Assembly: GCA_005880315.1 (NCBI GenBank)
Contig: VBHB01000079.1
Span: forward strand, 62,001-126,000
Source of the DNA: Chloroflexota bacterium
GTDB taxonomy: Bacteria; Chloroflexota; Dormibacteria; Dormibacterales; Dormibacteraceae
Direction: 5' to 3'
Length of the DNA stretch: 64,000 bases
The position numbers and the translations under genes are program-made. Below are positions 2,261 through 34,818 of the stretch, one piece after another (position 1 is the first letter of the stretch; each line of letters opens with the position of its first letter). A model generated the notes under the pieces. The model was not told where the DNA came from. It searched no databases and saw nothing but the letters and a program-made list of their open reading frames with translations.

Positions 2261-2848
2261 GTGCCAGTGAAAGCCAGGGTCCGCGGAGGGCGTCGCCAGC
2301 GCGGCCAGTCGCTGGTCGAGTTCGCAATCTCCTCGATCGTCCTGCTGCTTTTGATGATGGGACTGCTGGACCTCTCGCGAGCGTTCTACTTCGCCGTGAA
2401 CCTCCAGGGAGCCGCACGCGAAGGGGCTCGACATGGCGCCTGGTTCAACACCTCCTCGCGCGCCAACCTCTACCTCGACGACGCCGACGTGATGGCGGCG
2501 GTCAACTCCGGCCTCTCCGGTTCCGGCCTGGTCGGGACCTTCGTGCCGTCCGCCAACTGCCTGGTGCCGACCGACAGCAATACGCTCAACAACAAGCCAT
2601 ACCCGACCTCGGCATACCCGGCGACCCCGCAGGCGGTCAACGTCTACATCTGCTACACGCAGCCGAATGGCGGCCCCCAGACCGGGACAATGCCCGCCCA
2701 TCCGACCGACAACTCTTGGCGCCTCGGTGACATCAACGTCTCACTGCTGATGAACTTCCAGCTCATCACGCCTTTCATCCAGAGCCTCTTCGGCAACAGC
2801 ATCAACCTGGCGTACAACGAGCACTTCACCATCCAGGGCAAGCCATGA
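2261..2848 (+). CDS. TadE-like pilus/secretion protein 1
   Basis: About 195 aa. A short basic N-terminus is followed by the TadE/TadG signature (GQSLVEFAISSIVLLLLMMGLLDLSRAFYF): a Glu five residues into a single membrane segment, then QGAAREGARHGAW. TadE proteins are minor pseudopilins of Flp-type (Tad) pili, processed by a prepilin peptidase. The rest is a secreted-looking domain. The start is uncertain: GTG 2222, 2261 and 2267 are all in frame and none has a clear ribosome-binding site; 2261 places the basic stretch just before the TM. The stop overlaps the next start (ATGA). No Tad ATPase or platform genes are in the window. Confidence 0.75.
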   Translation: MPVKARVRGGRRQRGQSLVEFAISSIVLLLLMMGLLDLSRAFYFAVNLQGAAREGARHGAWFNTSSRANLYLDDADVMAAVNSGLSGSGLVGTFVPSANCLVPTDSNTLNNKPYPTSAYPATPQAVNVYICYTQPNGGPQTGTMPAHPTDNSWRLGDINVSLLMNFQLITPFIQSLFGNSINLAYNEHFTIQGKP

Positions 2849-3492
2849 CGGCACGACTGAAGGGACTCCAGGCCAGCGCCAGGCGATCGATCGCAACCGT
2901 CCGGGAGTGGACGCGCAGCGAGCGGTCGCAGGGGATGACCGAGTTCGCCCTGATTGCCCCCGTCATCCTTCTGCTCACCTTCGGCATCATCGACTTCGGC
3001 CGCGGGCTGTACTTCTATATCACGCTCCAGCAGGCGGCCAACGAAGGCGCCCGCGTGGCGGTGCGCGCCTCCTACTTCATCGACCCCAACGGTGCTTTCC
3101 ATACCTGGCCCACGGACGCCGACGTTGCGTCTGCCGTCCAGTCCCATGCCGTCACCGAGGTCCTCGCCAACCCGTGCCCCAACGGCCCGATCCCCAACGG
3201 CGGCAACCCGGTTGGCTCGGCGCAGCTGCCACCGTCAAACACAGGTTGGATCTTCGTCACCGACCCCAGCGCTGCCGGCAACGGCGTCCCCAACGGTCCG
3301 CGCGGCGGCCTCGGCACGTTGCCCGCGCCTGGTCCCGGGTGCAACACGATCACACCTGCGGTCGGCAACGAGCCCATCAAGGTGACGCTCTGGTTTAACT
3401 TCCAGCCTCTCACTCCATTAATCCAGCAAGTTGTCGGAAACAAGATCGTCATCACTGCTTATGCGGTTTATCGTGCCGAGTACTCGAACTAG
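2845..3492 (+). CDS. TadE-like pilus/secretion protein 2
   Basis: 215 aa, starting at an ATG that overlaps the previous stop by 4 nt (ATGA). A basic cytoplasmic leader (residues 1-30) precedes the TadE signature SQGMTEFALIAPVILLLTFGIIDFGRGLYF, with the conserved Glu near the TM start and the QQAANEGARVAVRAS segment after it. The remaining ~140 residues are Pro/Gly/Asn-rich and presumably extracytoplasmic. It is paralogous to the preceding gene in its N-terminal half only. The pair plus the following TadG-like gene forms a compact tadE-tadE-tadG operon, so the products probably act together at the cell surface. Confidence 0.8.
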   Translation: MTARLKGLQASARRSIATVREWTRSERSQGMTEFALIAPVILLLTFGIIDFGRGLYFYITLQQAANEGARVAVRASYFIDPNGAFHTWPTDADVASAVQSHAVTEVLANPCPNGPIPNGGNPVGSAQLPPSNTGWIFVTDPSAAGNGVPNGPRGGLGTLPAPGPGCNTITPAVGNEPIKVTLWFNFQPLTPLIQQVVGNKIVITAYAVYRAEYSN

Positions 3493-5689
3493 GTCATTGC
3501 GGCGAAAGCTGCAAGAAGGCCAGGCGATCGTTTTGATCGCGCTGCTGATGCTCGTCCTCTTTGCCATGCTCGGGCTGGCCATCGACTCCGGCCGTGCCTA
3601 CGTCGACCGGCGAGACCTGCAGGCGGCGGTCGATGCCTCGGCACTATCAGCCGGCGACTGGTACGAGAACTACGGCGATCTCACCGGCTCGACCCTGCCG
3701 CAGTCTGTAGCGCTGTTCCAGAGCGACCTGCGCCTCTACGCCGGAGCAACGTCCTCTGCCTGCCAGGCGCCGTGCCCCAAGCTGGTCGGACCAAACTTCA
3801 ACCTGACCGAGTTCACGTACGTTTACACCTACCCCGGCAACCTGGTGCTCACGGTCGTGGCGACGAACACGCAGTTCAACGGTTACCAGTTCGTGTTCAC
3901 GGCCGAACACCAGCTTCCTCTCGCCTTCATGCAGATCTTCGGCGGCCCGACGACCGCGTACATCATGGCCACCGCCACGTCGATCGTCGGCAACCAGCGC
4001 CAGACTCCTGCCCTGCTCACGCTGAGCAGCGGCAGCTGTGCGCTCACGCTGACCGGCGCCGCGACGCTGACCGTGCTCGGCGATACCTACACCAACGGCA
4101 CCGCGTGCGTGGACGCCAACCTGCATGAGGCTGGCAACTGCTACGGAGGCGCCGGCTCCAACTGCAACGTGGCGACCTACTACTGCTACAACTCCACTCC
4201 GGGTTTTATCCCGTACGATCCGGCGACTAATGGCGGCGTCTGCAAGGCGGGCGACACCATCGGCCAGCCAGTCGTGCCCGCACCAAGCCTGCCCGACCCC
4301 GGCTACCTGGCGCCGTCTGTGCCCTACTACACCGCGGGCGCCGGCTACGCAAAGGACAACCGCGGCACATGGACGGAGATGTATGCCGGCCAGTACGGCG
4401 CCTTCCATCTCAGCGGCGGCTCGGCCAGCTGCGCCTTCCTCGACCCGGGCGTCTACACGTGGACCGGGGGCTACCAGTCGGACGCGTCCGGCAGCCTCCT
4501 CTCCAACGAGCTGAAGGCCCCGGACGAGGAGAGCACAGCGGCCGTGGGCACAGCCGCGGTCGCGAACCCTCAGTTCTGGGACATGAACTCAACCGGCTGC
4601 GCGGGGCACTTTAACGTGGCCCCAACGCCGGCGCCCGGCTTCGGCATCAAGCACAACGGCGGCAACGGTAAATGGGGCGTCGAGCTCACGTCCGTCCGCT
4701 GGGACACCTTCAACGACCCGACGATATTGCCCGACCCGTGCCTCGCCTCACCAGGCTGCCGGCGTGAGAGCGCGCCATCCTCGTGTCAAGAGGTCGGCAC
4801 CATCGACAGCAACAACCAGGGCATCAACGTCAACATCACCCAGAACGCACCGGGCGCGCAGTACTACAACATCTACGTCAACCCCAACGGCTGTCTGAGT
4901 TCGTATGTCGGCGGATCTCAAAATGACTTCTCGTTCGTGGGTCGGTACCTCGCCCCCGGCTTCGTCGACGGGGGCGGCCCCCCGGCCACGCCGGTCGGGC
5001 CATACCCCAGCGGAGCCAACAAGACCCTGGTCCTGGGGACCGGCGGCTGGCCATGTGGCCTGGCGATAGTCACCATCTGCGGCATCGCCTTCAACAACAT
5101 GTCGCCGACGAAGCAGTGCTTCGCCCAGACCCGCAGCACGCTGTGCCAGCCGCCTGACGACGAGCTCGCCCCGCAGTGCTTCAGCAACTGCCCGCCGCCC
5201 GCGGGCCTGCTGTCGCAGGAGAACGCGGCGATGTCTCTCGAATATTTCCCCTGGCCCGGTGGCGACGTGGCCAACGAAAACTACTGCCAGCTGACGCCCC
5301 CGGCCGGGACCGGTGACCCGAACGCGCCGTGCGCCACGGCCAAGATCACGCCTGGAGCGGTGCAGTTCTACTTTCCCAACGGGTCGTGCCTGGATCAGAA
5401 CGCCCAGGGCGCCACGTATGTCTTCAGTGGCGAGCAGTACAACTGGATCGTCATCTACCAGGTTCCCGGCAGCGCATGCGCCAACAGCCTGAACGGTGGT
5501 GCCTCGACCCAGTACATCGGCACCATCTACACGCCGTCCGCAGACTGGAAGATCAACGGCGGCGACCGCTCTCCGCTGGCCGGCCAGGTGATCGCCTACA
5601 CGGCCTCGATCAAGGGCGCGGCCGCGGTCGGCATCGACTTCAACCCGAACTACGCGCCTGCTCCGCCGGCCGCTCGCCTGATCAACTAA
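3461..5689 (+). CDS. TadG-like secreted protein with large Cys-rich C-terminal region
   Basis: 742 aa from ATG 3461, which overlaps the previous gene by 32 bp; GTG 3473 and TTG 3497 are alternatives and no start has a good ribosome-binding site. Residues ~20-60 carry the Tad-G N-terminal pattern (EGQAIVLIALLMLVLFAMLGLAIDSGRAYVDRRDLQAAVDASAL). The remaining ~670 residues are Gly/Asn/Tyr/Cys-rich, with many spaced cysteines suggesting a disulfide-stabilised exported domain. I recognise no enzyme motif there. TadG proteins are membrane-anchored accessory proteins of Flp pili. The stop shares bases with the convergent stop of the following minus-strand gene, leaving no room for a terminator. Confidence 0.75.
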   Translation: MRFIVPSTRTRSLRRKLQEGQAIVLIALLMLVLFAMLGLAIDSGRAYVDRRDLQAAVDASALSAGDWYENYGDLTGSTLPQSVALFQSDLRLYAGATSSACQAPCPKLVGPNFNLTEFTYVYTYPGNLVLTVVATNTQFNGYQFVFTAEHQLPLAFMQIFGGPTTAYIMATATSIVGNQRQTPALLTLSSGSCALTLTGAATLTVLGDTYTNGTACVDANLHEAGNCYGGAGSNCNVATYYCYNSTPGFIPYDPATNGGVCKAGDTIGQPVVPAPSLPDPGYLAPSVPYYTAGAGYAKDNRGTWTEMYAGQYGAFHLSGGSASCAFLDPGVYTWTGGYQSDASGSLLSNELKAPDEESTAAVGTAAVANPQFWDMNSTGCAGHFNVAPTPAPGFGIKHNGGNGKWGVELTSVRWDTFNDPTILPDPCLASPGCRRESAPSSCQEVGTIDSNNQGINVNITQNAPGAQYYNIYVNPNGCLSSYVGGSQNDFSFVGRYLAPGFVDGGGPPATPVGPYPSGANKTLVLGTGGWPCGLAIVTICGIAFNNMSPTKQCFAQTRSTLCQPPDDELAPQCFSNCPPPAGLLSQENAAMSLEYFPWPGGDVANENYCQLTPPAGTGDPNAPCATAKITPGAVQFYFPNGSCLDQNAQGATYVFSGEQYNWIVIYQVPGSACANSLNGGASTQYIGTIYTPSADWKINGGDRSPLAGQVIAYTASIKGAAAVGIDFNPNYAPAPPAARLIN

Positions 5690-22894: not shown

Positions 22895-22920
22895 AATGTA
22901 CGGGAACCTGCGGATACCAT
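22895..22920. promoter_or_regulatory. Divergent -10 boxes (GNAT / GT87)
   Basis: Minus strand TACATT (22900-22895), 9 nt before ATG 22885. Plus strand TACCAT (22915-22920), 8 nt before ATG 22929. Both genes lack a ribosome-binding site; the 43-bp gap holds both promoters. Confidence 0.45.
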
Positions 22921-22928
22921 CCGCGTCG

Positions 22929-24143
22929 ATGGCTGGCATGAGGCGGTGGCGGAACCTCGGCATCGCGGCAGGAGCAACCGCGTCGGCAATGTTTGCCGCG
23001 TTCGACGTCTACCAGTGGGCTGTGGCCTACGCCTCCGACCACTTCCACAACGACTTCACCTTCTATTACGCGGCGGCGGTGATCGGCGTCACCCACGGTT
23101 GGCCGTCCATCTACGACCTCGGCCGCCAGCAGTCGCAACTCAATTCGATGGGCTCTGGCATCGGCATCGCTCAGCTTGCGCGCTACATCAGCCCACCCCC
23201 CGTTGCCTGGCTCGCCCTCCCCTTCACCCTTCTGCCCTATCCCTTCGCCTACTGGCTCTGGAGCGCGTTCCTGCTGGCCGCGCTGGCAGGCACGTGGTTT
23301 TTCGCCGTCCCTGGGGTGGGGCGCTGGAGACTGATCCACCTGGTTGCGGCGCTGGGCTGGCTGCCGATCATCTACGGGCTCCAGCTCGGTCAGCCCGGCA
23401 TGTTCGTGGCTTTCGGCGTGGCCGCCTCGTATGCGCTGCTCAGGTCAGGCCGGCAGCTGGGATCAGGCGTCGCACTGGGATTGATCGTGCTCAAGCCGCA
23501 GCTCGGCTTCCTCGTCCCGGTGGCACTCCTCGTGGCCGGGCGCTACCGGGCCTTCGCAGGCGCGGTGGCGGCAATCGGTTTGCTGGCGCTGGCGTCAGCG
23601 CTGAGCGTGGGGCCCCAAGGCATCGCCACATACGAGCAGCGGCTCACCTTTGCCGCCGGAGTGCCGGTCAACCGCGAGCTGACCCTGGCTCCGTACATCG
23701 GAGACCTGACGGTGACCCGCATCGTGCAAGGCGCCATCGCGATCTGGGCGCTCGGGCTCGTCTTTCGATTCCGCAAGCGATCGCCGGAGTGGATCTTCGT
23801 GCCGGCCATCGTCGGCGGGCTGCTCGCGAGCCCATACCTCCACATCGATGACCTGGTGATGCTCGGCCTCGCGGCCTGGCTCTACCTCCGCATCCCTGGG
23901 CGGCCACCGTGGGCGTGGGCGCTGATGCTCGCACTCGTCATCGCCGGTGAGGGGATCGTGGAGTGGGGTCCGCTGCCCCTGATCGCCGGTGAGCTCGCGA
24001 CTCTTACCTTGCTGTCAGTCGCGGCGCTGAAACATGACGACGGCGATGCCGAGCATGACCGCCCCAACAGCGAGCGGGATCGGGAGCAGGTGCCCGTTGA
24101 TGGTCATTCCAAAACGATCGACCAGCGCGCTGGATCGGCCTGA
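22929..24143 (+). CDS. GT87 (DUF2029) polytopic membrane glycosyltransferase-like protein
   Basis: 404 aa with about nine TM segments. After TM1 an external loop contains HFHNDFTFYYAAAVIGVTHGWPSIYD, matching the acidic first loop of GT-C polyprenol-phosphate-mannose-dependent transferases. LQLGQPGMFVAFGVAASYALLRSGR and GLIVLKPQLGFLVP are typical DUF2029 blocks. Predicted role: transfer of a sugar from a polyprenyl carrier outside the membrane. The last ~40 residues (from LKHDDGDAEHD) are hydrophilic and unlike the family. They lie antisense to the 58-aa minus-strand gene, so the original stop has probably been lost or the tail is fortuitous. Confidence 0.8.
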   Translation: MAGMRRWRNLGIAAGATASAMFAAFDVYQWAVAYASDHFHNDFTFYYAAAVIGVTHGWPSIYDLGRQQSQLNSMGSGIGIAQLARYISPPPVAWLALPFTLLPYPFAYWLWSAFLLAALAGTWFFAVPGVGRWRLIHLVAALGWLPIIYGLQLGQPGMFVAFGVAASYALLRSGRQLGSGVALGLIVLKPQLGFLVPVALLVAGRYRAFAGAVAAIGLLALASALSVGPQGIATYEQRLTFAAGVPVNRELTLAPYIGDLTVTRIVQGAIAIWALGLVFRFRKRSPEWIFVPAIVGGLLASPYLHIDDLVMLGLAAWLYLRIPGRPPWAWALMLALVIAGEGIVEWGPLPLIAGELATLTLLSVAALKHDDGDAEHDRPNSERDREQVPVDGHSKTIDQRAGSA

Positions 24144-26693: not shown

Positions 26694-27626
26694 GTGGGAG
26701 GCGCTGCCTTGATCGGCCATTCTCCAGCCCAAACCTCGTCCACGTCGGAGCGAGTCCGGCGAACCGTAGCGCTCCTGTCGCGTCGCGGCTTTGCGCTGGA
26801 CGTGAAGCAGCTGGCAGGCTCGTGCCTGGGTGGCGCGATCAGCGAGGAGGACGTTCGCTGGGCGGTCGCCGCCTCGCCCGAGCTGACCCTCACACACGAT
26901 CTGATTGTCCTGCGCTCGGACCGAGCGAGAGCCGTCGCGATCAGGTCCCGGGCTGCGGACCACGCCACCGACGCCCCGCCATACACGGAGATGACGGTGC
27001 GCTTCGTCCGCACACTGGTCCGGGTCGCGCCATTCATTCGCAGCGTCTCGATTGCGGGCTCGCTGGCGAGTGGAGGCTTTCGGGCGTCGGACGACGTGGA
27101 CCTGAACCTGATCGTCGACGACGGCCGACGCCACCTCGCATACGTGGCGGTCAACGTCCTTGGCGTGCTGCACGCGCTGCGTCATCGCGCCAAGCCTGTC
27201 GACGACCTCACTCGGCGCCCGCTCGCGCCAAGGCTGATGACCGCGAACCTGATCCTGGAGCGGTCGCAATGCCACCCGCTGGCGCGGCAGGACGAGGACA
27301 TGGCGTTCGAGCTGCTGATGTCACAGCCAGTCTTCGGCCTGGATGTCTTCGACGAGGTCATCGAGGCCAACCTCGTGTTGCTCGACCACTTTCCGCAGCT
27401 CGAGTCGCGTTCGCGGAACCTGGCCATCGAAGCCCCCGCGCGACGGTGGCTTCCAGGCTGGTTCTTCCCCGCCGTGCTGGACGGCCTGGCGAGGAAGCTT
27501 GGCGGAGCCGCGTGGCGCTTCATGCAGTGGACGCGCCGCGGCAAGCCGGATGCCCTGGCGCGCGTGGCCTACGTGCGGGCCACCATGCGTCCTTATACCC
27601 TGTTCGACGAGACGCACTCGACGTGA
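26694..27626 (+). CDS. Nucleotidyltransferase-domain protein
   Basis: 310 aa, GTG start. Residues ~20-100 look like a helical N-terminal domain (RVRRTVALLSRRGFALDVKQLAG). The core is a minimal nucleotidyltransferase motif, SIAGSLASGGFRASDDVDLNLIVDDG (about residues 119-145), with the GS and DxD-like DVDL elements of the Pol-beta superfamily. The C-terminal part is helical with a short hydrophobic stretch (WLPGWFFPAVLDGLARKLGG). NTP-transfer activity is likely; the acceptor is unknown. It is the first gene of the overlapping cluster, and its stop overlaps the GTG of the large glycosyltransferase (GTGA). Confidence 0.75.
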   Translation: MGGAALIGHSPAQTSSTSERVRRTVALLSRRGFALDVKQLAGSCLGGAISEEDVRWAVAASPELTLTHDLIVLRSDRARAVAIRSRAADHATDAPPYTEMTVRFVRTLVRVAPFIRSVSIAGSLASGGFRASDDVDLNLIVDDGRRHLAYVAVNVLGVLHALRHRAKPVDDLTRRPLAPRLMTANLILERSQCHPLARQDEDMAFELLMSQPVFGLDVFDEVIEANLVLLDHFPQLESRSRNLAIEAPARRWLPGWFFPAVLDGLARKLGGAAWRFMQWTRRGKPDALARVAYVRATMRPYTLFDETHST

Positions 27627-30600
27627 TCGCCTCGATCACTGTCGGAGTGCTGGCGGCAACCAGCCTCGCGCTGCTGTGCTTCGGATTGAATCTCCTGTAC
27701 CTCACCTGGAGCTCCACTCGCATCCGCCCCTCGCCTCAGCAGCTGGTTCTGTCGGGAGAGGAACCGACCGTCTGCGTGCAGGTCCCGATCTACAACGAGC
27801 GCTACGTCGCCGAGCGGGTCATCGACGCGGTCTGCGCGATGGACTGGCCGCGCGATCGCCTCGAGGTGCAACTGCTCGACGACTCCGATGACGAGACCTC
27901 GTTCATCGTCAGCCGCCGGGCGGCGCACTGGCGTCGCAAGGGGACGAAAGTCGCCCACGTGCGGCGCGCTACGCGTGAAGGTTTCAAGGCCGGCGCGCTC
28001 GCGCACGGGCTGAGCCTCACCGCCGCGCCCTTCATAGCCATCTTCGACGCGGATTTCGTGCCGCCGTCCGACTTCCTGCGCCGCACCGTTGGCGTCTTCG
28101 CCGACCCGCGTGTCGGTTTCGCGCAGGCCCGATGGGGACACCTCGACGAGGGCTACTCGTGGTTCACGCGCCTGCAGGCGCTGGCCATCGACTTCCATTT
28201 TCTCGTCGAGCAGGCCGTTCGATCGGAGAAGGGCTTCTTCACCAACTTCACAGGCACCGCGGGAGTCTGGCGGCGCGACGCCATCGACGACGCGGGGGGA
28301 TGGAGCGCCGCCACGCTGACCGAGGACCTCGAGCTCAGCTATCGCGCACAGCTCCGTGGTTGGAAGTCGGCCTATGTCGAGGACCTGGTGGTGCCGGAAG
28401 AGCTGCCGGTGTCCATCGACGCGTACCGGCGCCAGCAGTCACGATGGGCGACCGGGAGCTTCCAGTCCGCGTTTCTCCTGCTCGTCCCGGTCATGCGCAG
28501 CTCCAACCGTCTCGCTGTCAAGTTCCAGGCCGTAGTGCATCTCATCGCATACGGCGTCGGTCCGGTGATGCTGATCCAACTCGCCTGCTATCCGCTGCTT
28601 CTGGTCGTGTTCGCCCAGGAGAAGCTCGAGCTGCCCTGGTACGTCAAGGACGTGACTGTTGTAGCCATCCTCGTGGGCATCTCGCCGTGGATCGGATTCA
28701 TGGTCGCCCAGACGCGGCAGGGCCGGCGGTGGTGGGCGGGGGTGCCGTCGCTCCTGTGCCAGGTGGTCGGCGCCGGTATGTCGCTCAACACGTTGATTGC
28801 TCTCGCGCGCGCCACCCGCCGCGGAGGCGAGTTCGTGCGCACACCGAAGCACCGCATCGTCCAGCGGGGCCAGGAGTGGCGCGACCAGGCTTACGTCCAG
28901 GTAGGCGACCCGCGCGCACTGGCCGAAGGTCTAGTCGGCCTGGGCGCTTTCGCCATGGTGCCCACAGCCATAGCTATGGGCCAGGGCCTCGTCGCCGTCT
29001 ACTCCGGCATGTTCGGCCTTGGGTTTGTCTCGGTCGCCGCTCTCAGCGCGGCCGACCTCGTCCAGGTGGTGGCCCTGCGCCGCCTGGGCGCTCGTGCCCT
29101 GACACGCGTTCGTGCTTTGACGCCGGTCGCCGGATTGTTTGGTTTGTGCGGGATTCTCCTCCTGCTCGCGGCGCAGCTGCCGGAACCATTCGAGGACGGC
29201 TACGGCCACTGGCTCATCGCCGCCAACCTGGCCCAGACCGGACACCTGCACGACCCGCTCTTCGGGATGGAGGACACATGGTTGCCCGGATACCACGTGC
29301 TCGGCGCCGCCGTCCTGACCGTTTTCGGATGGCACCAGCTCGCTGCGCTCAAGGTCCTCGGCGCGATGCTTGGGCTGGCCACACTCGCATGCGTCTACTG
29401 GATCGCGCCCAACGCCCGGCAGGGGCGGCTGGCTGTGGCCCTGCTTGCCCTCAACCCGGTCTTCCTCCTCACCTCCGGCTCGGCCGTGGTCGAGCCGCTC
29501 ATGACAGTGCTGCTCACCGGTGCTGCATTGGCCGCCATTCGGCGCCACGTGCGGCTGGCCGCACTGCTCGCAGCGCTGGCCGCGGTCACCGCTACCAAAG
29601 CGTGGATATGGATCGGCGCCGTCGTTGCCTTCGTGGTCATCGAAGAAATCCATGCACGCATCACCCAGCGCGCCATGCGACCGATAGCAGCTGCCGCATG
29701 GGCGGTCCCAGCGGTCGCGCTCCTGGTTTTCGTGCAACTCGGCTATGGACCGGCCGGCCATTCGATCGACCGCGGTTCAGTCGAGGTGCTGTCCGCAACT
29801 GCCCGCGGCAGTCTGCCCGGCAGCGCCATTGCGCGCGTGCTGGAGCTGGCGCGGACATACGGCATCGCGACGCTGCCTTTGTTTGCGCTCGGTTTGGTAG
29901 GCCTGGTCTCGGCGGTCCGCCGCCCCGAATCGATCGGCGGCATGCGGGCGCTCAGGTTCCTCCATGCGCCCGCCCTGGTCTACCTCGCGGCGGTGTTCGG
30001 CCTCGTCGCCGCAGGTGCATACACCGGCAGCCACCGCTATCTGTATCCCACGCTGCCGTCGCTGGCGCTCCTGGCTGCCGCCGCCCTCGACCGGGTGAGA
30101 TGGCCGGCCGGACTTGGCGCCATAGCCGCGGCTGCGCTCCTGGCAGTGGGCTTCCTTCCTGCGTATGCGAGCTTCGGAGCTGAGAACGACGGCCTCGTTG
30201 CGGCCGGGAGAGCGGCCGCCGGCCCGGGCATGCTCGTTACGGATTCACCGGTCGTCGCCTATTACAGCGGCCGGCCGCCATCAAAGATCGCGGGCTCGAG
30301 GTCGTTGCCTTCGGACCGCGACCAGGCGGTCGCCTGGATGACTTCGCACAACGTGGGCGCCATCGTGCTCGAAGGCATCAGCTACTACCCTGCCACCGCG
30401 CTATTCCCGGACCTGGCGAGCGGCCACGCCACACCGCCGTTCAGGTCGTTGGGCGATCAGGCCCGGTATCAGGTCGCGGGGGGCAAGCCCGTCTACGCCT
30501 ACCGCCTGGGAGGGGCGCTGCTGACGCAGTCGATCACGCCAGGCATCGCGGCCTGCATCGAAGGCACTGCCGTCCGTGGCAAGACGGCGCAGCTCGCAAA

Positions 30601-31201
30601 GGGTGTCGTGCTGGAGGTCGCCGGGAGCGACGTGGGCGGCGAAGGCATGGGCTTCGGAGTGCCGATCGTCCACTACGCGGATGGGTGGGTCTTCCCGCGG
30701 ACCGTCACCACAACCGACGTCTCCACGGCGACGGAAACGATCTGGCAGCGCGACTTCGAGCTGGACGAAACCGGTGGCGACGCGATCCCGGGTGGAGGCT
30801 TCGACTTCAAACCCGTGGCCTCACGAGGGCGAATCGAGGTCACCTACGCGATCTCGACTGCAGGGGTAGCGGTAAACGTAAAAGTAATCCGTTTGGAGCC
30901 CGGCTACACGGAGGTTGCGATCCTGAACGAAGAGTCAGCGGATTTCAACGACCTCGCCGACCCCTCGAAGACTCTTGTTGGCTCCGCTTTCGGCCGCTGG
31001 GTGCCGGTGGCCGGCGACTGGGCACGGTTGCGCTCAGGAAGCCTCGGCGTCGAATGGTCTGTGCCAGCCATCAAGGGAGCACAGCTCTACGGAGGCCGCG
31101 AATGGGCCGCTCCCAATTTCGACTGGGCTGGCCTGGACTACGTGTTCTCGGGGCCGTTCTACGGCACGAGTTATCGCATCAACGTGCAAGAAGCGAGGTG
31201 A
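27623..31201 (+). CDS. GT2 / GT-C fusion membrane glycosyltransferase, 1192 aa
   Basis: Three modules. Residues ~1-480: processive GT2 of the cellulose-synthase/glucomannan type, with VPIYNERYVAERVIDAV, the metal site FDADF (about 141), TEDLEL (about 232) and QQSRW (about 271), then TM helices. Residues ~490-880: a second polytopic region with a GT-C-like first loop (LPEPFEDGYGHWLIAANLAQTGHLHDPLFGMEDTWLPGYHV), resembling PMT/GT39 lipid-linked-sugar transferases. Residues ~960-1192: a soluble domain rich in beta strands, no family recognised. The GTG start overlaps the nucleotidyltransferase stop and the stop overlaps the radical SAM start. A single polypeptide combining cytoplasmic nucleotide-sugar and external lipid-sugar transferases is unusual. 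Confidence 0.88.
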   Translation: MIASITVGVLAATSLALLCFGLNLLYLTWSSTRIRPSPQQLVLSGEEPTVCVQVPIYNERYVAERVIDAVCAMDWPRDRLEVQLLDDSDDETSFIVSRRAAHWRRKGTKVAHVRRATREGFKAGALAHGLSLTAAPFIAIFDADFVPPSDFLRRTVGVFADPRVGFAQARWGHLDEGYSWFTRLQALAIDFHFLVEQAVRSEKGFFTNFTGTAGVWRRDAIDDAGGWSAATLTEDLELSYRAQLRGWKSAYVEDLVVPEELPVSIDAYRRQQSRWATGSFQSAFLLLVPVMRSSNRLAVKFQAVVHLIAYGVGPVMLIQLACYPLLLVVFAQEKLELPWYVKDVTVVAILVGISPWIGFMVAQTRQGRRWWAGVPSLLCQVVGAGMSLNTLIALARATRRGGEFVRTPKHRIVQRGQEWRDQAYVQVGDPRALAEGLVGLGAFAMVPTAIAMGQGLVAVYSGMFGLGFVSVAALSAADLVQVVALRRLGARALTRVRALTPVAGLFGLCGILLLLAAQLPEPFEDGYGHWLIAANLAQTGHLHDPLFGMEDTWLPGYHVLGAAVLTVFGWHQLAALKVLGAMLGLATLACVYWIAPNARQGRLAVALLALNPVFLLTSGSAVVEPLMTVLLTGAALAAIRRHVRLAALLAALAAVTATKAWIWIGAVVAFVVIEEIHARITQRAMRPIAAAAWAVPAVALLVFVQLGYGPAGHSIDRGSVEVLSATARGSLPGSAIARVLELARTYGIATLPLFALGLVGLVSAVRRPESIGGMRALRFLHAPALVYLAAVFGLVAAGAYTGSHRYLYPTLPSLALLAAAALDRVRWPAGLGAIAAAALLAVGFLPAYASFGAENDGLVAAGRAAAGPGMLVTDSPVVAYYSGRPPSKIAGSRSLPSDRDQAVAWMTSHNVGAIVLEGISYYPATALFPDLASGHATPPFRSLGDQARYQVAGGKPVYAYRLGGALLTQSITPGIAACIEGTAVRGKTAQLAKGVVLEVAGSDVGGEGMGFGVPIVHYADGWVFPRTVTTTDVSTATETIWQRDFELDETGGDAIPGGGFDFKPVASRGRIEVTYAISTAGVAVNVKVIRLEPGYTEVAILNEESADFNDLADPSKTLVGSAFGRWVPVAGDWARLRSGSLGVEWSVPAIKGAQLYGGREWAAPNFDWAGLDYVFSGPFYGTSYRINVQEAR

Positions 31202-32532
31202 GTGAGGTGAAGGCGGACGTTGTTTTGGTCTATCCCCAGGTGGCGCCCGCGCAGGGTCGTCACTGGATCATGCCTTCCCTCGGGCTCATGTACCTGAGCG
31301 CGTCCTTGAGGCGGGCCGGATACGAGGTGAGGCATATCGACCATACCTTCATGACGCGCGCCGAACTTCTCGCCGAGATCGAGCGGTTGCAGCCGTCAGT
31401 CATCGGCATCTACTGCATGATCACGATGCAGGACGAGGCGCTTTGGATCGCAGAGCAGGTTCGTGGCAAGGCGCTTACCGTAGTTGGCGGCCCCTACCCC
31501 TCGGGCGAGCCCGACACCTTCGTCGACCAGTTCGACCTGGTTGCGGTAGGCGAAGGCGAGGAGACGATCGTACAGGTCATGGAACACCTCGACGACCGCC
31601 GCTTCGAGGAGATTCCCGGGTTGGTTTTCAAGCGCGACGGCGAGATCGTGCAGACGACCCCACGGGTCCGCACCAAGGACATGTCGCACCTCCCGCTGCC
31701 CTATCGGGGGGATATCCCCAACGCCAAGTACATCGATTACTGGCGCAAGCACTGGAAGGACGCGACCACGCCGCTGATGTCCACACGTGGCTGTCCGTTC
31801 CGCTGCGACTTCTGCCACAAGTCGGTTTTCGGCGACCTGTTCAGCGCACGGCCCGTCGAGTCCGTGGTGGCGGAGATGCGCGAGATCGCTGAACTCGGCT
31901 ACGACCACATCTGGATGTCGGACGACCTGTTCACCCTCAACTACAAGCGCACATTCGAGCTGGCGCAAGCGATCGAGCGTGAGCATCTGCCCTTGACGTG
32001 GGAATGCCTCAGCCGCGTGACCCACGTCGACCAGGCATTGTTCGAGCAGATGCATCGCGCTGGCTGCAAGCGGATCTTTTTCGGTATCGAGTCCGGCGAC
32101 GCCGGCGTGCTGAAGGAGATGAAGAAAGGCATCACGCCGGAGCAGGCGCGCTCAGCGGTCGAGGCGTGCGTCGCGGCCGGAATCAAGGCGGCCGGCTTTT
32201 TCATGGTCGGTTACCTCGGCGAGACCACCGACTCTTTGATCCGCAGCATCAACTTCTCCAGCAGCCTCCCGCTCGACTACGTCAGCTACACCATCGCCTA
32301 CCCCCTGCCAGGCACTGGCTTCTACGAGAGGGTGCGGGAACGCAGGCAGCGAGGCGAGTGGCACAAGGTCAGGCACAACCGCCTCCTTTTCAACACGGAT
32401 TTCTCAGAGAACAAGCTCCGTGCGGCGATTCTCAAGGGCGCGATCCAGCACCGCCTGAACAAGATGAACCTGCGGCCGGCCTCGAGAGCTTTCGAGCTCG
32501 CCACCAACCCACTGCTACGCGTTCTTCGTTGA
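31198..32532 (+). CDS. B12-binding-domain radical SAM protein
   Basis: 444 aa, GTG overlapping the previous stop (GTGA). The N-terminal ~170 residues look like the cobalamin-binding Rossmann domain of class B radical SAM enzymes (VVLVYPQVAPAQGRHWIMPSLGLMYLSASLRRAGYEV, then VVGGPYPSGEPD and VAVGEGEETI). The radical SAM core has C199-x3-C203-x2-C206 (RGCPFRCDFC) and a GIESGDAGVLKEMKKGIT strand motif. Such enzymes methylate, cyclise or couple unreactive carbons; lipid and polyketide targets are common. The cobalamin-ligating His motif is not evident. Placement between an envelope glycosyltransferase and exported proteins suggests a membrane lipid or carrier substrate; this is inference. Confidence 0.88.
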   Translation: MSEVKADVVLVYPQVAPAQGRHWIMPSLGLMYLSASLRRAGYEVRHIDHTFMTRAELLAEIERLQPSVIGIYCMITMQDEALWIAEQVRGKALTVVGGPYPSGEPDTFVDQFDLVAVGEGEETIVQVMEHLDDRRFEEIPGLVFKRDGEIVQTTPRVRTKDMSHLPLPYRGDIPNAKYIDYWRKHWKDATTPLMSTRGCPFRCDFCHKSVFGDLFSARPVESVVAEMREIAELGYDHIWMSDDLFTLNYKRTFELAQAIEREHLPLTWECLSRVTHVDQALFEQMHRAGCKRIFFGIESGDAGVLKEMKKGITPEQARSAVEACVAAGIKAAGFFMVGYLGETTDSLIRSINFSSSLPLDYVSYTIAYPLPGTGFYERVRERRQRGEWHKVRHNRLLFNTDFSENKLRAAILKGAIQHRLNKMNLRPASRAFELATNPLLRVLR

Positions 32533-33452
32533 CGGCAACTTTGGCTGCGCTCGTGATGATCTGCGGCTGCTCGCACGCTCCCGCCGCACCCCGAGCGGAG
32601 CATCCATACCCGAAAGTTGGCGTGATCCTCCTTTCGTTGGCGACAGGAACCGTGAAGGCGTCGGCGTCGGTCGGCGGGGATCTCGTCGCGGTGACCTTGT
32701 CCGAGGACGGGGAGATCGCTTATGTCGCCGATAGCGCGCCGGGAGACGTGTACGCGCTTACGATGCCCGCGCTGACCGTCGTCTGGAAACAGCATGTAGG
32801 AGGCTCGCCATTCGGACTACTTGTGCATGGAGGTCGCCTCCTCGTGAGCTTGTTCGCGGGAGCGGCGGTGGTAGCTCTCGATCCTTTGAACGGAGCTCAG
32901 ATGGCCTCGTACCATGTGCCCGCAGGCCCCGCGGAGATCGCACTGGATGCCCAAGGTCGCGTTGTGGTCGCAGGCACGCGCGGGCAAGTCACGTACCTGG
33001 ACGGCACCCAGCTTCGCGCCGGAACTGGATTTGCGATCGCGCTGGTGGATGGCACGATGTGGACCGAGGATTACGAGCGCGCAGAGCTTGTCCATCTTGG
33101 CGATGGTCATCGGATTGGCTTGCCGCTACCCCTGTTTCCGTTCTGGCTCGCCCCGGGCGGCCCCGGGCAACTGCTCGTTTCAGCCGAGGGCGGTAATGAA
33201 GACGACGATCCCGGCGGTGTCTTTGCACTGGACACCACATCCGAAAAATTCACGACTCTTGCACGGCCCAGAGATCCCGACCAGGTGGTCGGATTCGGAA
33301 CCAAAGTCTTCGTCGCCGCACATGGTGACAAGGACGTATTGGCCATCGATGCCGAGAAAACCAACATTTGGGCGCCAGGCATGCCGGCGGTAGGGCTCGC
33401 GCCCGACGCTCAACTCGGCCTTCTGGCTGTCGTTGTGAATGATCATGAGTGA
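32529..33452 (+). CDS. Beta-propeller (YncE-like) lipoprotein
   Basis: 307 aa if TTG 32529 is used, which overlaps the radical SAM stop as TTGA, matching the NTGA overlaps upstream; TTG 32541, GTG 32553 and ATG 32556 are alternatives. The N-terminus MTATLAALVMICGCS is a short lipoprotein-type signal with Cys12 or Cys14 as the acylated residue. The rest shows five or six blade-like repeats of the YVTN/YncE type (LVAVTLSEDGEIAYVADSAPGDVYAL, GPAEIALDAQGRVVVAG, DPDQVVGFGTKVFVAAHGDKDVLAID). Predicted to sit on the outer face of the membrane as a binding or scaffold protein. No quinoprotein residues identified. Confidence 0.75.
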   Translation: MTATLAALVMICGCSHAPAAPRAEHPYPKVGVILLSLATGTVKASASVGGDLVAVTLSEDGEIAYVADSAPGDVYALTMPALTVVWKQHVGGSPFGLLVHGGRLLVSLFAGAAVVALDPLNGAQMASYHVPAGPAEIALDAQGRVVVAGTRGQVTYLDGTQLRAGTGFAIALVDGTMWTEDYERAELVHLGDGHRIGLPLPLFPFWLAPGGPGQLLVSAEGGNEDDDPGGVFALDTTSEKFTTLARPRDPDQVVGFGTKVFVAAHGDKDVLAIDAEKTNIWAPGMPAVGLAPDAQLGLLAVVVNDHE

Positions 33453-33882
33453 CGCTTGGCCGAGCGTCTTCAGAATCGTTGTGGGCATTTATTGGCTGTA
33501 CTTCGCGAGCCAGAAGTGGCAAGGCGTTGGCTGGATGCAGGGCGTGATCAAGTCAACCGCTCAGTCAAATCCAATTCCGGGTTTGCACGAGTTCCTGAAT
33601 GGCGTGGTGGTCCCGAACTGGTTCTTGTTCGCCGTCGGCCAGACGATCGGAGAGACGCTCGTCGCTGTCCTTCTCATCCTCGGCCTTGCAACACGCTGGG
33701 CGGCCGTTTTAGGCCTTCTGCTTGCCCTCAATCTGGCCCTTACGGTCGCGTTCGGGGTCAACGATGACGGCTTCAGGTGGCTCTATTACCTCGCGGTCAT
33801 CGCCAACGCGCAGGTGATCGTGTCCGGTGGGGGCCGCTACGCGGTCTCGAATGCCAAATGGATGCCCGCGTTTCTGCGCTAA
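33439..33882 (+). CDS. DoxX-family membrane protein
   Basis: 147 aa, four predicted TM segments. FRIVVGIYWLYFASQKW at the N-terminus and VGQTIGETLVAVLLILGLATRWAAVLGLLLALNL match the DoxX/SURF4-like fold; related proteins are quinone-linked subunits or maturation factors such as MauE and DoxD. ATG 33439 overlaps the propeller gene by 14 bp (ATG 33445 also possible). In this operon it could move electrons for an exported redox step. That is a guess from the family. Confidence 0.82.
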   Translation: MIMSDAWPSVFRIVVGIYWLYFASQKWQGVGWMQGVIKSTAQSNPIPGLHEFLNGVVVPNWFLFAVGQTIGETLVAVLLILGLATRWAAVLGLLLALNLALTVAFGVNDDGFRWLYYLAVIANAQVIVSGGGRYAVSNAKWMPAFLR

Positions 33883-34361
33883 CTGGTTTGGCGATGCTTC
33901 TGATCGGCTTTGGCGCGTGCACAAGCGATAAGCCCACAGCGCCGTCAACGGCGAGCACGGGATGCCGACAGGGCCCTGCGCTGGCCGGGGTATGGAGCCC
34001 GGACCGGCTGCAGCTCATAGCGCCGTGCAAACACGTGTCGGGAATGGTTGCGGTAACCCAGGGGGAGCCGGACGGCGACCATCATGTCTGGCTGTTGGTG
34101 GACGCCGGCTACGAATACCTACTTGATGACGAGAACCATTTCCAGGCCAAGCCGGCCTTGCTGGCCGAGATAACACCTAGCTGCCCCCTCGACAGCAACC
34201 CGCCTAACGCCGAGGCAGCTGCCCGATGCCCGCCGGCGCAGCTCCCCATCCCAGTCGCCGGTGACCACATCGCAATCGATGGCCCGTGGGTGCTGGACAC
34301 CGATCACGGCTGGCGGGAGATTCACCCGGTGGAGGCGATCCAGATTCTGGCCCAAGCTTAA
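33858..34361 (+). CDS. Small lipoprotein with OB-fold-like C-terminal motif
   Basis: 167 aa; ATG 33858 overlaps DoxX by 25 bp. Signal region MDARVSALTGLAMLLIGFGACTSDKP with Cys22 as the likely lipidated residue (Phe at -3 is unusual). The mature part has HVSGMVAVTQGEPDGDHHVWLLVD and GDHIAIDGPWVLDTDHGWREIHPVEAI, a strand pattern seen in small exported OB-fold-like domains. Four cysteines occur in the middle (TGCRQG, APCKH, PSCPLD, ARCPP). Last gene of the six-gene overlapping cluster. Function unknown. Confidence 0.7.
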   Translation: MDARVSALTGLAMLLIGFGACTSDKPTAPSTASTGCRQGPALAGVWSPDRLQLIAPCKHVSGMVAVTQGEPDGDHHVWLLVDAGYEYLLDDENHFQAKPALLAEITPSCPLDSNPPNAEAAARCPPAQLPIPVAGDHIAIDGPWVLDTDHGWREIHPVEAIQILAQA

Positions 34362-34392: not shown

Positions 34393-34818
34393 ATGGGTGT
34401 CGACGCCGAAGGTTATGGGTTCCCGGCGCACAAGCGCACGATCGCGCGCCTGATGGAAGACGTCCGAATCCTCTCCCCGGCCGGCGTCGAGCGGGTCGCC
34501 CAGGGTTGGGATGAGCATGTCGGAGAGAGCAGGCTTGGCGCTTTCAGGGAGGCCGAGAAGGCCGCGCTGCACGCGATCGAGCAAGCCGATCGCGGAGGGG
34601 CATGGGACGAAGTTCGCCGCACTCTTTTCGGTCTGACCGAGTCCGGAGCAGCCCTCATCTCCTGGCGTGCCGAGCACGGCGACATGGGCCACAAGGCCGA
34701 GAACGCGGCCTTCGCCGCAGCCCTCGGGCTGCTCGCGGACGGCCAGATCAGCAAGCAGCAGCAGGAGACGCTGCTGCGACCCATGGCCGAGGCCCTGCCC
34801 TGGCTGCTGCAGGAGTGA
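34393..34818 (+). CDS. Soluble helical hypothetical protein
   Basis: 141 aa, no recognised family. All-helical composition, no signal or TM: AHKRTIARLMEDVRILSPAGVERVAQGWDEHVG, then ALHAIEQADRGGAWDEVRRTLFGLTE and a C-terminal ISKQQQETLLRPMAEALPWLLQE. TACCCT lies 9 nt before the ATG. It begins 31 bp after the cluster above, so it may be cotranscribed or have its own promoter. It ends 6 bp from the convergent reductase stop. Confidence 0.6.
   Translation: MGVDAEGYGFPAHKRTIARLMEDVRILSPAGVERVAQGWDEHVGESRLGAFREAEKAALHAIEQADRGGAWDEVRRTLFGLTESGAALISWRAEHGDMGHKAENAAFAAALGLLADGQISKQQQETLLRPMAEALPWLLQE

Follow-up and report, generated by a model that had tools for sequence, protein, structure and literature searches.

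The window, a stretch of 64,000 nucleotides from a Candidatus Dormibacterota (Chloroflexota) genome (contig VBHB01000079.1), carries a cluster of six overlapping genes that we read, with modest confidence, as a surface-glycan locus making a polysaccharide or a long-chain glycolipid. Its product would contain a sugar or carrier modified by a B12-binding radical S-adenosylmethionine (SAM) protein (rSAM), and would be built by a GT2 glycosyltransferase fused to a partner that acts outside the cell. The constant unit of the cluster consists of four genes, encoding a nucleotidyltransferase-like protein (NT), the glycosyltransferase fusion, the rSAM and a DoxX-family membrane protein. It is all-or-none within one family of uncultured soil bacteria, the window's own (f1 in the genome grouping used). 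Homologues of NT, of the GT2 and of the B12 rSAM share polysaccharide loci elsewhere in Chloroflexota, in support of the envelope-glycan reading. Joint presence or absence of the core genes in f1, together with the co-location of their homologues in those other loci, argues for one coupled pathway.

Organization of the cluster

The six genes are as follows.

26694..27626, + strand: NT, nucleotidyltransferase-like, 310 aa, GTG start, Pol-beta type motif GSLASGGFRASDDVDL; core gene
27623..31201, + strand: fusion, three domains, 1192 aa; core gene
31198..32532, + strand: B12-binding radical SAM protein (rSAM), 444 aa, CX3CX2C at residues 199-206; core gene
32529..33452, + strand: propeller-like lipoprotein, 307 aa, TTG start; optional; assigned as a lipoprotein by eye
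33439..33882, + strand: DoxX-family membrane protein, 147 aa; core gene within the family
33858..34361, + strand: second small lipoprotein-like protein, 167 aa; optional; assigned as a lipoprotein by eye

Successive genes overlap by 4 (GTGA), 4 (GTGA), 4 (TTGA), 14 and 25 bp. Open reading frames and DNA agree with the six genes, coordinates, strands and overlaps of a preliminary description of this DNA. To that picture are added a following 141-aa gene on the same strand, the optional nature of the propeller and second lipoprotein, and the smaller constant unit of NT, fusion, rSAM and DoxX. Of 26 related loci, 24 have the 4-bp overlap of NT and fusion and 22 that of fusion and rSAM, counts for which the start codon nearest the homologous start was chosen, a choice that favours constant overlap. 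Relative to locus L028, the ratio of nonsynonymous to synonymous substitution rates (dN/dS) lies at 0.04-0.19 in NT, fusion, rSAM and propeller and reaches 0.45-0.46 in DoxX and the second lipoprotein; these ratios and conservation over 27 loci rule out chance reading frames. At the gathering score, the window contains no RNA families and no tRNAs.

A three-domain fusion protein

The fusion comprises a GT2 domain (about residues 34-488), a GT-C domain (about 490-965) and a mutarotase-like beta-supersandwich domain (about 985-1192). Its GT2 half scores 98.8 bits against the Pfam GT2 family, above the cut-off. Processive-type GT2 enzymes are marked by the motifs D, DxD, TED and QxxRW, which appear here as DDS 86, DAD 142, TED 233 and QQSRW 271. 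Among 24 fusion homologues the last three are invariant and DDS is at least 90% conserved. By these sequence motifs the GT2 half is assigned to the processive, BcsA-like (D,D,D,QxxRW) type. An AlphaFold2 model of the fusion, built from 24 sequences, is of middling quality, with a mean predicted local distance difference test score (pLDDT) of 63. In predicted structure, the best fold matches of this half are BcsA, on which residues 40-488 align with a Z-score of 18.1 and a root-mean-square deviation (rmsd) of 7.4 over 239 aligned residues, and PcManGT, on which the catalytic part aligns with Z 17.6 and rmsd 3.2 over 187.

Enzymes of the GT-C superfamily share a fold of multiple transmembrane helices with an acidic motif in the first outer loop. 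The GT-C half of the fusion reaches the cut-off of no Pfam family. Its predicted structure (residues 490-965) aligns on oligosaccharyltransferase (Z 21.7, rmsd 5.4, 417 aligned), ALG12 (Z 21.4, rmsd 4.4, 408 aligned), ArnT (Z 20.9, rmsd 4.4, 417 aligned) and O-mannosyltransferases (Z 18.6, rmsd 5.0, 343 aligned), and the acidic pair E524-D525 that follows the first GT-C helix is invariant among fusion homologues. Residues 490-965 are accordingly modelled as a transferase of GT-C type with the ArnT/ALG12 fold. A separate model of the C-terminal domain reaches pLDDT 86. Among the 50 rows listed, this domain matches supersandwich domains of glycan-active enzymes at Z 11.8-14.3, mostly with rmsd 3-4 over 175-204 residues; Foldseek gives no match below E 1e-3 for it (best E 1.5e-3). 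The label "mutarotase-like" is our own, taken from the matched fold entries, and denotes fold only, not catalysis. Topology places this domain, by prediction, outside the cell.

The GT2/GT-C fusion proposed earlier is thus upheld by structure prediction (GT-C by fold) and by the acidic motif, with a third domain added. An assembly artefact is ruled out by long stop-free frames across the match in many assemblies. In one genome (G021, contig C38; also locus L053:7788-11490) the fusion is divided between two frames close to where GT2 and GT-C meet, either through a frameshift or as a true split.

The nucleotidyltransferase and the radical SAM protein

NT reaches the cut-off of no Pfam or NCBIfam family. 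Nucleotidyltransferases of the Pol-beta type carry the motif hG[GS]x9-13Dh[DE]h, which occurs in the window NT as AGSLASGGFRASDDVDLNLIV. The DDxDL part is invariant in 28 sequences, while the S of GS varies. Pfam Polbeta scores 11.7 bits (cut-off 26.9) in one of four NT homologues scanned, and the window protein itself matches no nucleotidyltransferase family. A profile comparison of 13 f1 rows against 24 others establishes homology between the window NT and its counterpart in other Chloroflexota loci (hhalign 98.3%, E 2.2e-14, 241 columns).

The rSAM is the most conserved gene of the unit in the loci compared. It matches PF04055 Radical_SAM at 91.6 bits (cut-off 29.5) and PF02310 B12-binding at 60.8 bits (cut-off 32.1), and both domains together with a CX3CX2C motif starting at residue 199 place it in class B, the B12-binding radical SAM enzymes. 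It stays under the curated cut-offs of HpnJ (147.2 bits against 577.6), TIGR04014 (148.2 against 360), PhpK (136.8 against 600) and AprD4 (92.7 against 500), and filing it as HpnJ is ruled out by the missed cut-off.

Distribution within the family and class

A genome-wide scan with the fusion, which provides the coverage beyond the phylum, returned 27 loci (L028-L054), in records labelled Candidatus Dormiibacterota, Candidatus Dormibacteraeota or Chloroflexi and in one labelled Gemmatimonadetes. The last (L044) is a typical f1 cluster with a fusion 70% identical, and its genome is probably misnamed. A match in Planctomycetota (L055) covers 87 residues at the end of a contig and shows no NT by tblastn.

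Most f1 genomes carry the cluster. Among 61 genomes, matches reach the GT-C half in 33 of 37 f1 members, some of these matches being interrupted by a contig end or a frame break. For the 24 genomes from other families, the listed fusion matches stop by residue 542, in the GT2 part, and two genomes have none. Across 110 genomes of the class, NT occurs in 38 of the 42 f1 members and the rSAM (73% identity or more) in 37; the remaining f1 genome with NT gives no rSAM match, its contig breaking off 72 codons into that gene. G008, G016, G019 and G020 are without NT, rSAM and fusion alike. In basal genera the flanks differ, and by eye the fusion, rSAM and DoxX lie together, with NT wherever the contig reaches. 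The neighbourhood comparison shows no scattering of the genes within f1, the outcome that would have counted against the preliminary reading.

Outside f1 the GT-C and C-terminal half is confined to traces. It is present in 20 of the 23 f1 genomes among 400 genomes of the phylum, for which the two to five best first-look candidates per genome were scored; the 377 others yield three weak partial matches only (E 7e-5 to 9e-4). The rSAM and NT reach further. At the class level, non-f1 rSAM matches at E 1e-40 come from four genomes of another family of the same class (f3), each with the rSAM directly downstream of a distant NT.

Loci with NT and rSAM elsewhere in Chloroflexota

NT is found at E 1e-6 in 28 of the 400 phylum genomes: two from f1, two from f3 and 24 from outside the class, 23 of which were examined (all except G314). 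An rSAM starts no more than 300 bp downstream of NT on the same strand in 15 of these 23 loci, and no more than 1.4 kb downstream in three more (L124, L133, L180). It lies 4.7 kb from NT in L127 and upstream of NT in L125. The association also holds when approached from the rSAM, with four candidates scored per genome. The window rSAM is matched at E 1e-52 or better in 26 non-f1 places; eight of these are less than 5 kb from an NT, and all eight rank in the ten best, when only 26 of the 377 non-f1 genomes have an NT. The remaining two of the ten best (G135, G346) have no NT match.

NT-linked rSAMs outside f1 form two types, A and B. A tree groups f1, A and B together with support of 99/97, with long branches flagged. 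Both B-type proteins scanned pass the B12-binding cut-off (67.8 and 54.4 bits). L117, L118, L133 and L180 each contain a set of three related radical SAM genes (types A, B and R2), and in L133 and L180 another Radical_SAM gene follows NT.

In G113, G158, G180, G208, G215 and G403, six of the 39 non-f1 genomes with a close GT2, the gene directly upstream of NT encodes a separate GT2 that shares 42-44% identity with the GT2 half of the fusion; in G383 such a GT2 occupies the end of the NT locus. Support of 100/99 in the GT2 tree unites f1, the NT-linked GT2s and a clade found beside sigma/anti-sigma genes. The last arrangement, a GT2 near the fusion's GT2 half adjoining sigma/anti-sigma genes, is seen in L166, L167, L169, L170 and L171 of another Chloroflexota family; Pfam confirms both genes in L171 and the anti-sigma gene in L169, the others being assigned by eye.

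The surroundings were read for nine loci (L077, L131, L133-L135, L168, L178-L180), and the other NT loci were searched by tblastn with selected queries. A flippase and Wzy_C are both confirmed by Pfam in L135, L168, L178 and L179. Pfam also finds a flippase in L131, where Wzy is recognized by eye, and in L077, and Wzy_C in L133 and L180. A tblastn search with a flippase query found none in L116-L135, yet Pfam finds one in L131 and L135, so that query lacks the sensitivity to demonstrate absence. A nucleoside-phosphorylase-like gene (PNP_UDP_1, 94-127 bits) is present at L131:3475-4299, L168:5736-6512, L178:12260-13006 and L179:1825-2598, and possibly clears 5'-deoxyadenosine released by radical SAM enzymes. 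In single comparisons, a Zn-ribbon methyltransferase of f1 loci is related to those in L077 and L131 (26-29% identity, E 3e-12 and 4e-19).

The repeated NT-rSAM neighbourhood is the stronger claim to be drawn from these loci. Common descent of the whole cluster is no more than likely, given the position of f1 beside types A and B in the rSAM tree and the lack of order among the three clades of the GT2 tree.

Accessory genes, neighbours and a recombined block

Two further features belong to the region.

34393..34818, + strand: 141-aa conserved protein, no known family; follows the cluster, membership of the unit uncertain
30423..34322, no strand: recombined block, from identity to locus L028 per 300 bp and dS

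Presence of the accessory genes was scored by tblastn (E 1e-4) across L028-L054, the 27 loci from the fusion scan, counting those that reach the position concerned. DoxX (PF07681, 36.3 bits, cut-off 23.6) is present in 25 of 25, and by eye also in the basal genera L080, L082, L083, L085 and L086. The propeller, whose PQQ_2 match is sub-threshold (25.9 bits, cut-off 27.6), occurs in 8 of 25. The second lipoprotein, with no Pfam or NCBIfam family at cut-off, occurs in 6 of 24, always alongside the propeller. The 141-aa gene is present in 24 of 24; it was not noticed beside the core in basal genera, by eye and with no dedicated search. The Zn-ribbon methyltransferase lies between DoxX and the 141-aa gene in L030, L033 and L053, three of the nine loci inspected closely. 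In basal genera a small membrane protein often adjoins DoxX, again by eye. It contains HExxH at L083:6856-7314, L085:2416-2865 and L086:4781-5359 and QEVSH at L080:7778-8290, and these proteins reach the cut-off of no Pfam family.

DNA identity between the window and L028 is 94-99% at 31023-34322 and 91-93% at 30423-31022, against 78-93% in the surrounding bins. The interval holds the end of the fusion, the rSAM, the propeller, DoxX and almost the whole of the second lipoprotein gene. Values of dS are 0.04-0.11 for rSAM, propeller, DoxX and second lipoprotein and 0.48-0.75 for NT, fusion and the 141-aa gene. The raised identity, its drop at both ends and the low dS are the signature of a recently recombined block of about 3.3-3.9 kb that would have carried the propeller cassette. 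By the same tblastn search, neither propeller nor second lipoprotein turned up in L029, L030, L040 and L043, loci of the same genus whose rSAM genes have only 84-86% DNA identity to that of the window.

Upstream of the cluster on the same strand (22896-24143) lies a GT87 gene of a further GT-C type (PF09594, 75.3 bits), separated from it by two opposite-strand genes. The window also carries TadE/TadE/Tad pilus-assembly-like genes at 2261-5689 (PF07811 twice, PF13400), and by eye a similar Tad set is close to the cluster of basal locus L082 (14195-17551).

Proposed function and alternatives

In the surface-glycan pathway favoured here, the GT2 would polymerise or extend a chain from nucleoside diphosphate sugars inside the cell and pass it out. 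The fused GT-C would add a sugar from a polyprenyl-phosphate carrier outside, where the supersandwich may hold the emerging chain. In the cytoplasm, the B12 rSAM would C-methylate or otherwise remodel a sugar or the carrier, and NT might transfer a nucleotidyl or phospho-linked group to an unusual sugar or activate that sugar. DoxX and the lipoproteins would serve as envelope accessories. A bolder and rather doubtful version holds that the glycan has a dedicated B12 rSAM for its sugars or carrier, nucleotidyl or phosphodiester groups from a new Pol-beta type family, and a single polypeptide that makes, exports and decorates the chain.

The preliminary description had placed all six genes in one pathway. 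This stands for the core, which is present or absent as a whole in f1 and has co-located homologues elsewhere; it does not stand for the six as a unit, given the sporadic propeller and second lipoprotein. It had also suggested an envelope glycoconjugate or a modified lipid: the glycoconjugate is the best reading, and a modified-lipid product has less positional support. A quinone-electron role for DoxX, which the description mentioned for proteins of that kind, is conjectural in this cluster.

Several observations weigh against the surface-glycan reading. By Pfam, the seven cluster proteins contain no flippase or polymerase, which leaves the cluster outside the Wzx/Wzy type of locus by that criterion, and the Wzy_C and Polysacc_synt_3 matches of its own genome lie on other contigs. 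Among the comparison loci, only one of flippase and polymerase was seen in L133, L180 and L077, the fetched stretch of L134 shows neither, and no rSAM was found at NT loci L120, L123 and L130. Identity between the window rSAM and those of other NT loci is only 27-39%, and the rSAM tree places the f1 type beside A and B, nested in neither. The commonest partner, type A, barely shows a B12-binding domain (32.3 and 23.7 bits in the two scanned, cut-off 32.1), so that its B12 binding is less sure than that of the window rSAM with 60.8 bits. By the listed coordinates, the GT2 lies outside the NT locus in 32 of the 39 non-f1 GT2 genomes; the GT2 tree leaves the order of its three clades unsettled; and the GT2 part of the fusion model is poor. 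Four of the 42 f1 genomes do without the cluster. The chemistry, down to the substrates of each enzyme, is inferred.

A modified membrane glycolipid is unlikely as the product. The GT2 would then attach a single sugar or a few to a lipid, in the way of the GT21 ceramide glucosyltransferase and HpnI, the rSAM would modify the lipid, and the GT-C would extend the head group outside. The absence of a flippase and polymerase from the seven proteins suits this scheme, as does the score of Glyco_transf_21 on the GT2 half (39.6 bits, cut-off 21.7). The rSAM likewise scores with the lipid-acting HpnJ (147 bits) and HpnR (94 bits), but both cut-offs are far off (577.6 and 650 bits). Moreover, the best GT2 fold matches are BcsA and PcManGT, and the polysaccharide loci in which NT-rSAM pairs occur elsewhere contain Wzy_C and flippase genes.

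Protein glycosylation, in which the GT-C would move a lipid-linked sugar or glycan onto exported proteins such as the two lipoproteins, in the manner of O-mannosyltransferases or oligosaccharyltransferases, is distinctly improbable. Both of these enzyme classes match the GT-C half (Z 18.6 and 21.7) besides ALG12 and ArnT, but the fold cannot separate acceptors. Lipoprotein genes do lie alongside, but they are optional, and a fused processive-type GT2 is unexpected for mono-glycosylation. That DoxX, the lipoproteins, the rSAM and the fusion share an operon and act separately, as the swappable cassette in the 3' part might suggest, is very improbable when fusion, NT and rSAM are together or absent in f1, stay together where the flanks differ, and have homologous NT-rSAM pairs in distant families.

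If the surface-glycan reading is correct, B12 radical SAM chemistry on surface sugars would be an added route to C-methylated or otherwise remodelled sugars.

Comparison with known systems

The preliminary description knew of no named pathway with this gene set. In the literature listings and beginnings of abstracts consulted, no described pathway with the set was found, nor a name for the NT and rSAM polysaccharide loci of other Chloroflexota. Likewise, no exact match to a characterised polysaccharide locus was named in the searches, which did not include collections of characterised loci.

Like HpnJ, the MCR glutamine C-methyltransferase and PhpK, the rSAM combines B12-binding and radical SAM domains with CX3CX2C, but it falls far under their equivalog or subfamily cut-offs. 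The GT-C half shares with ArnT, ALG12 and oligosaccharyltransferase the fold of residues 490-965 and the acidic motif after the first GT-C helix. It differs in lying under Pfam cut-offs and in being fused to a GT2 and a supersandwich. With BcsA the fusion shares the GT2 fold, the D,D,D,QxxRW motifs and transmembrane helices after them. The cellulose synthase BcsA carries a PilZ domain for cyclic di-GMP, and the fusion has no PilZ match at E up to 1. On TIGR03030 it scores 135.9 bits against a cut-off of 699.1, which rules out filing it as cellulose synthase. The proposed joining of cytoplasmic glycan synthesis and outside decoration in one protein is a testable architecture.

The Chloroflexota polysaccharide loci L077, L131, L133-L135, L168, L178 and L179 have a homologous NT beside an rSAM, as here, so that an uncharacterised NT and radical SAM pair recurs in polysaccharide loci of several families of the phylum. 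L131, L133, L134, L135, L178 and L179 also share the GT2 (42-44% identical) directly upstream of NT, and L077 and L131 the related Zn-ribbon methyltransferase of f1 loci. In most of those read, a flippase, Wzy_C, GT4 and the nucleoside-phosphorylase-like gene lie alongside. Their GT2 stands apart as a protein of about 500 aa, whereas in the window it is fused to a GT-C and a supersandwich and accompanied by DoxX and lipoproteins. With the GT2 standing alone in one family and fused in another, the role of each part can be tested.

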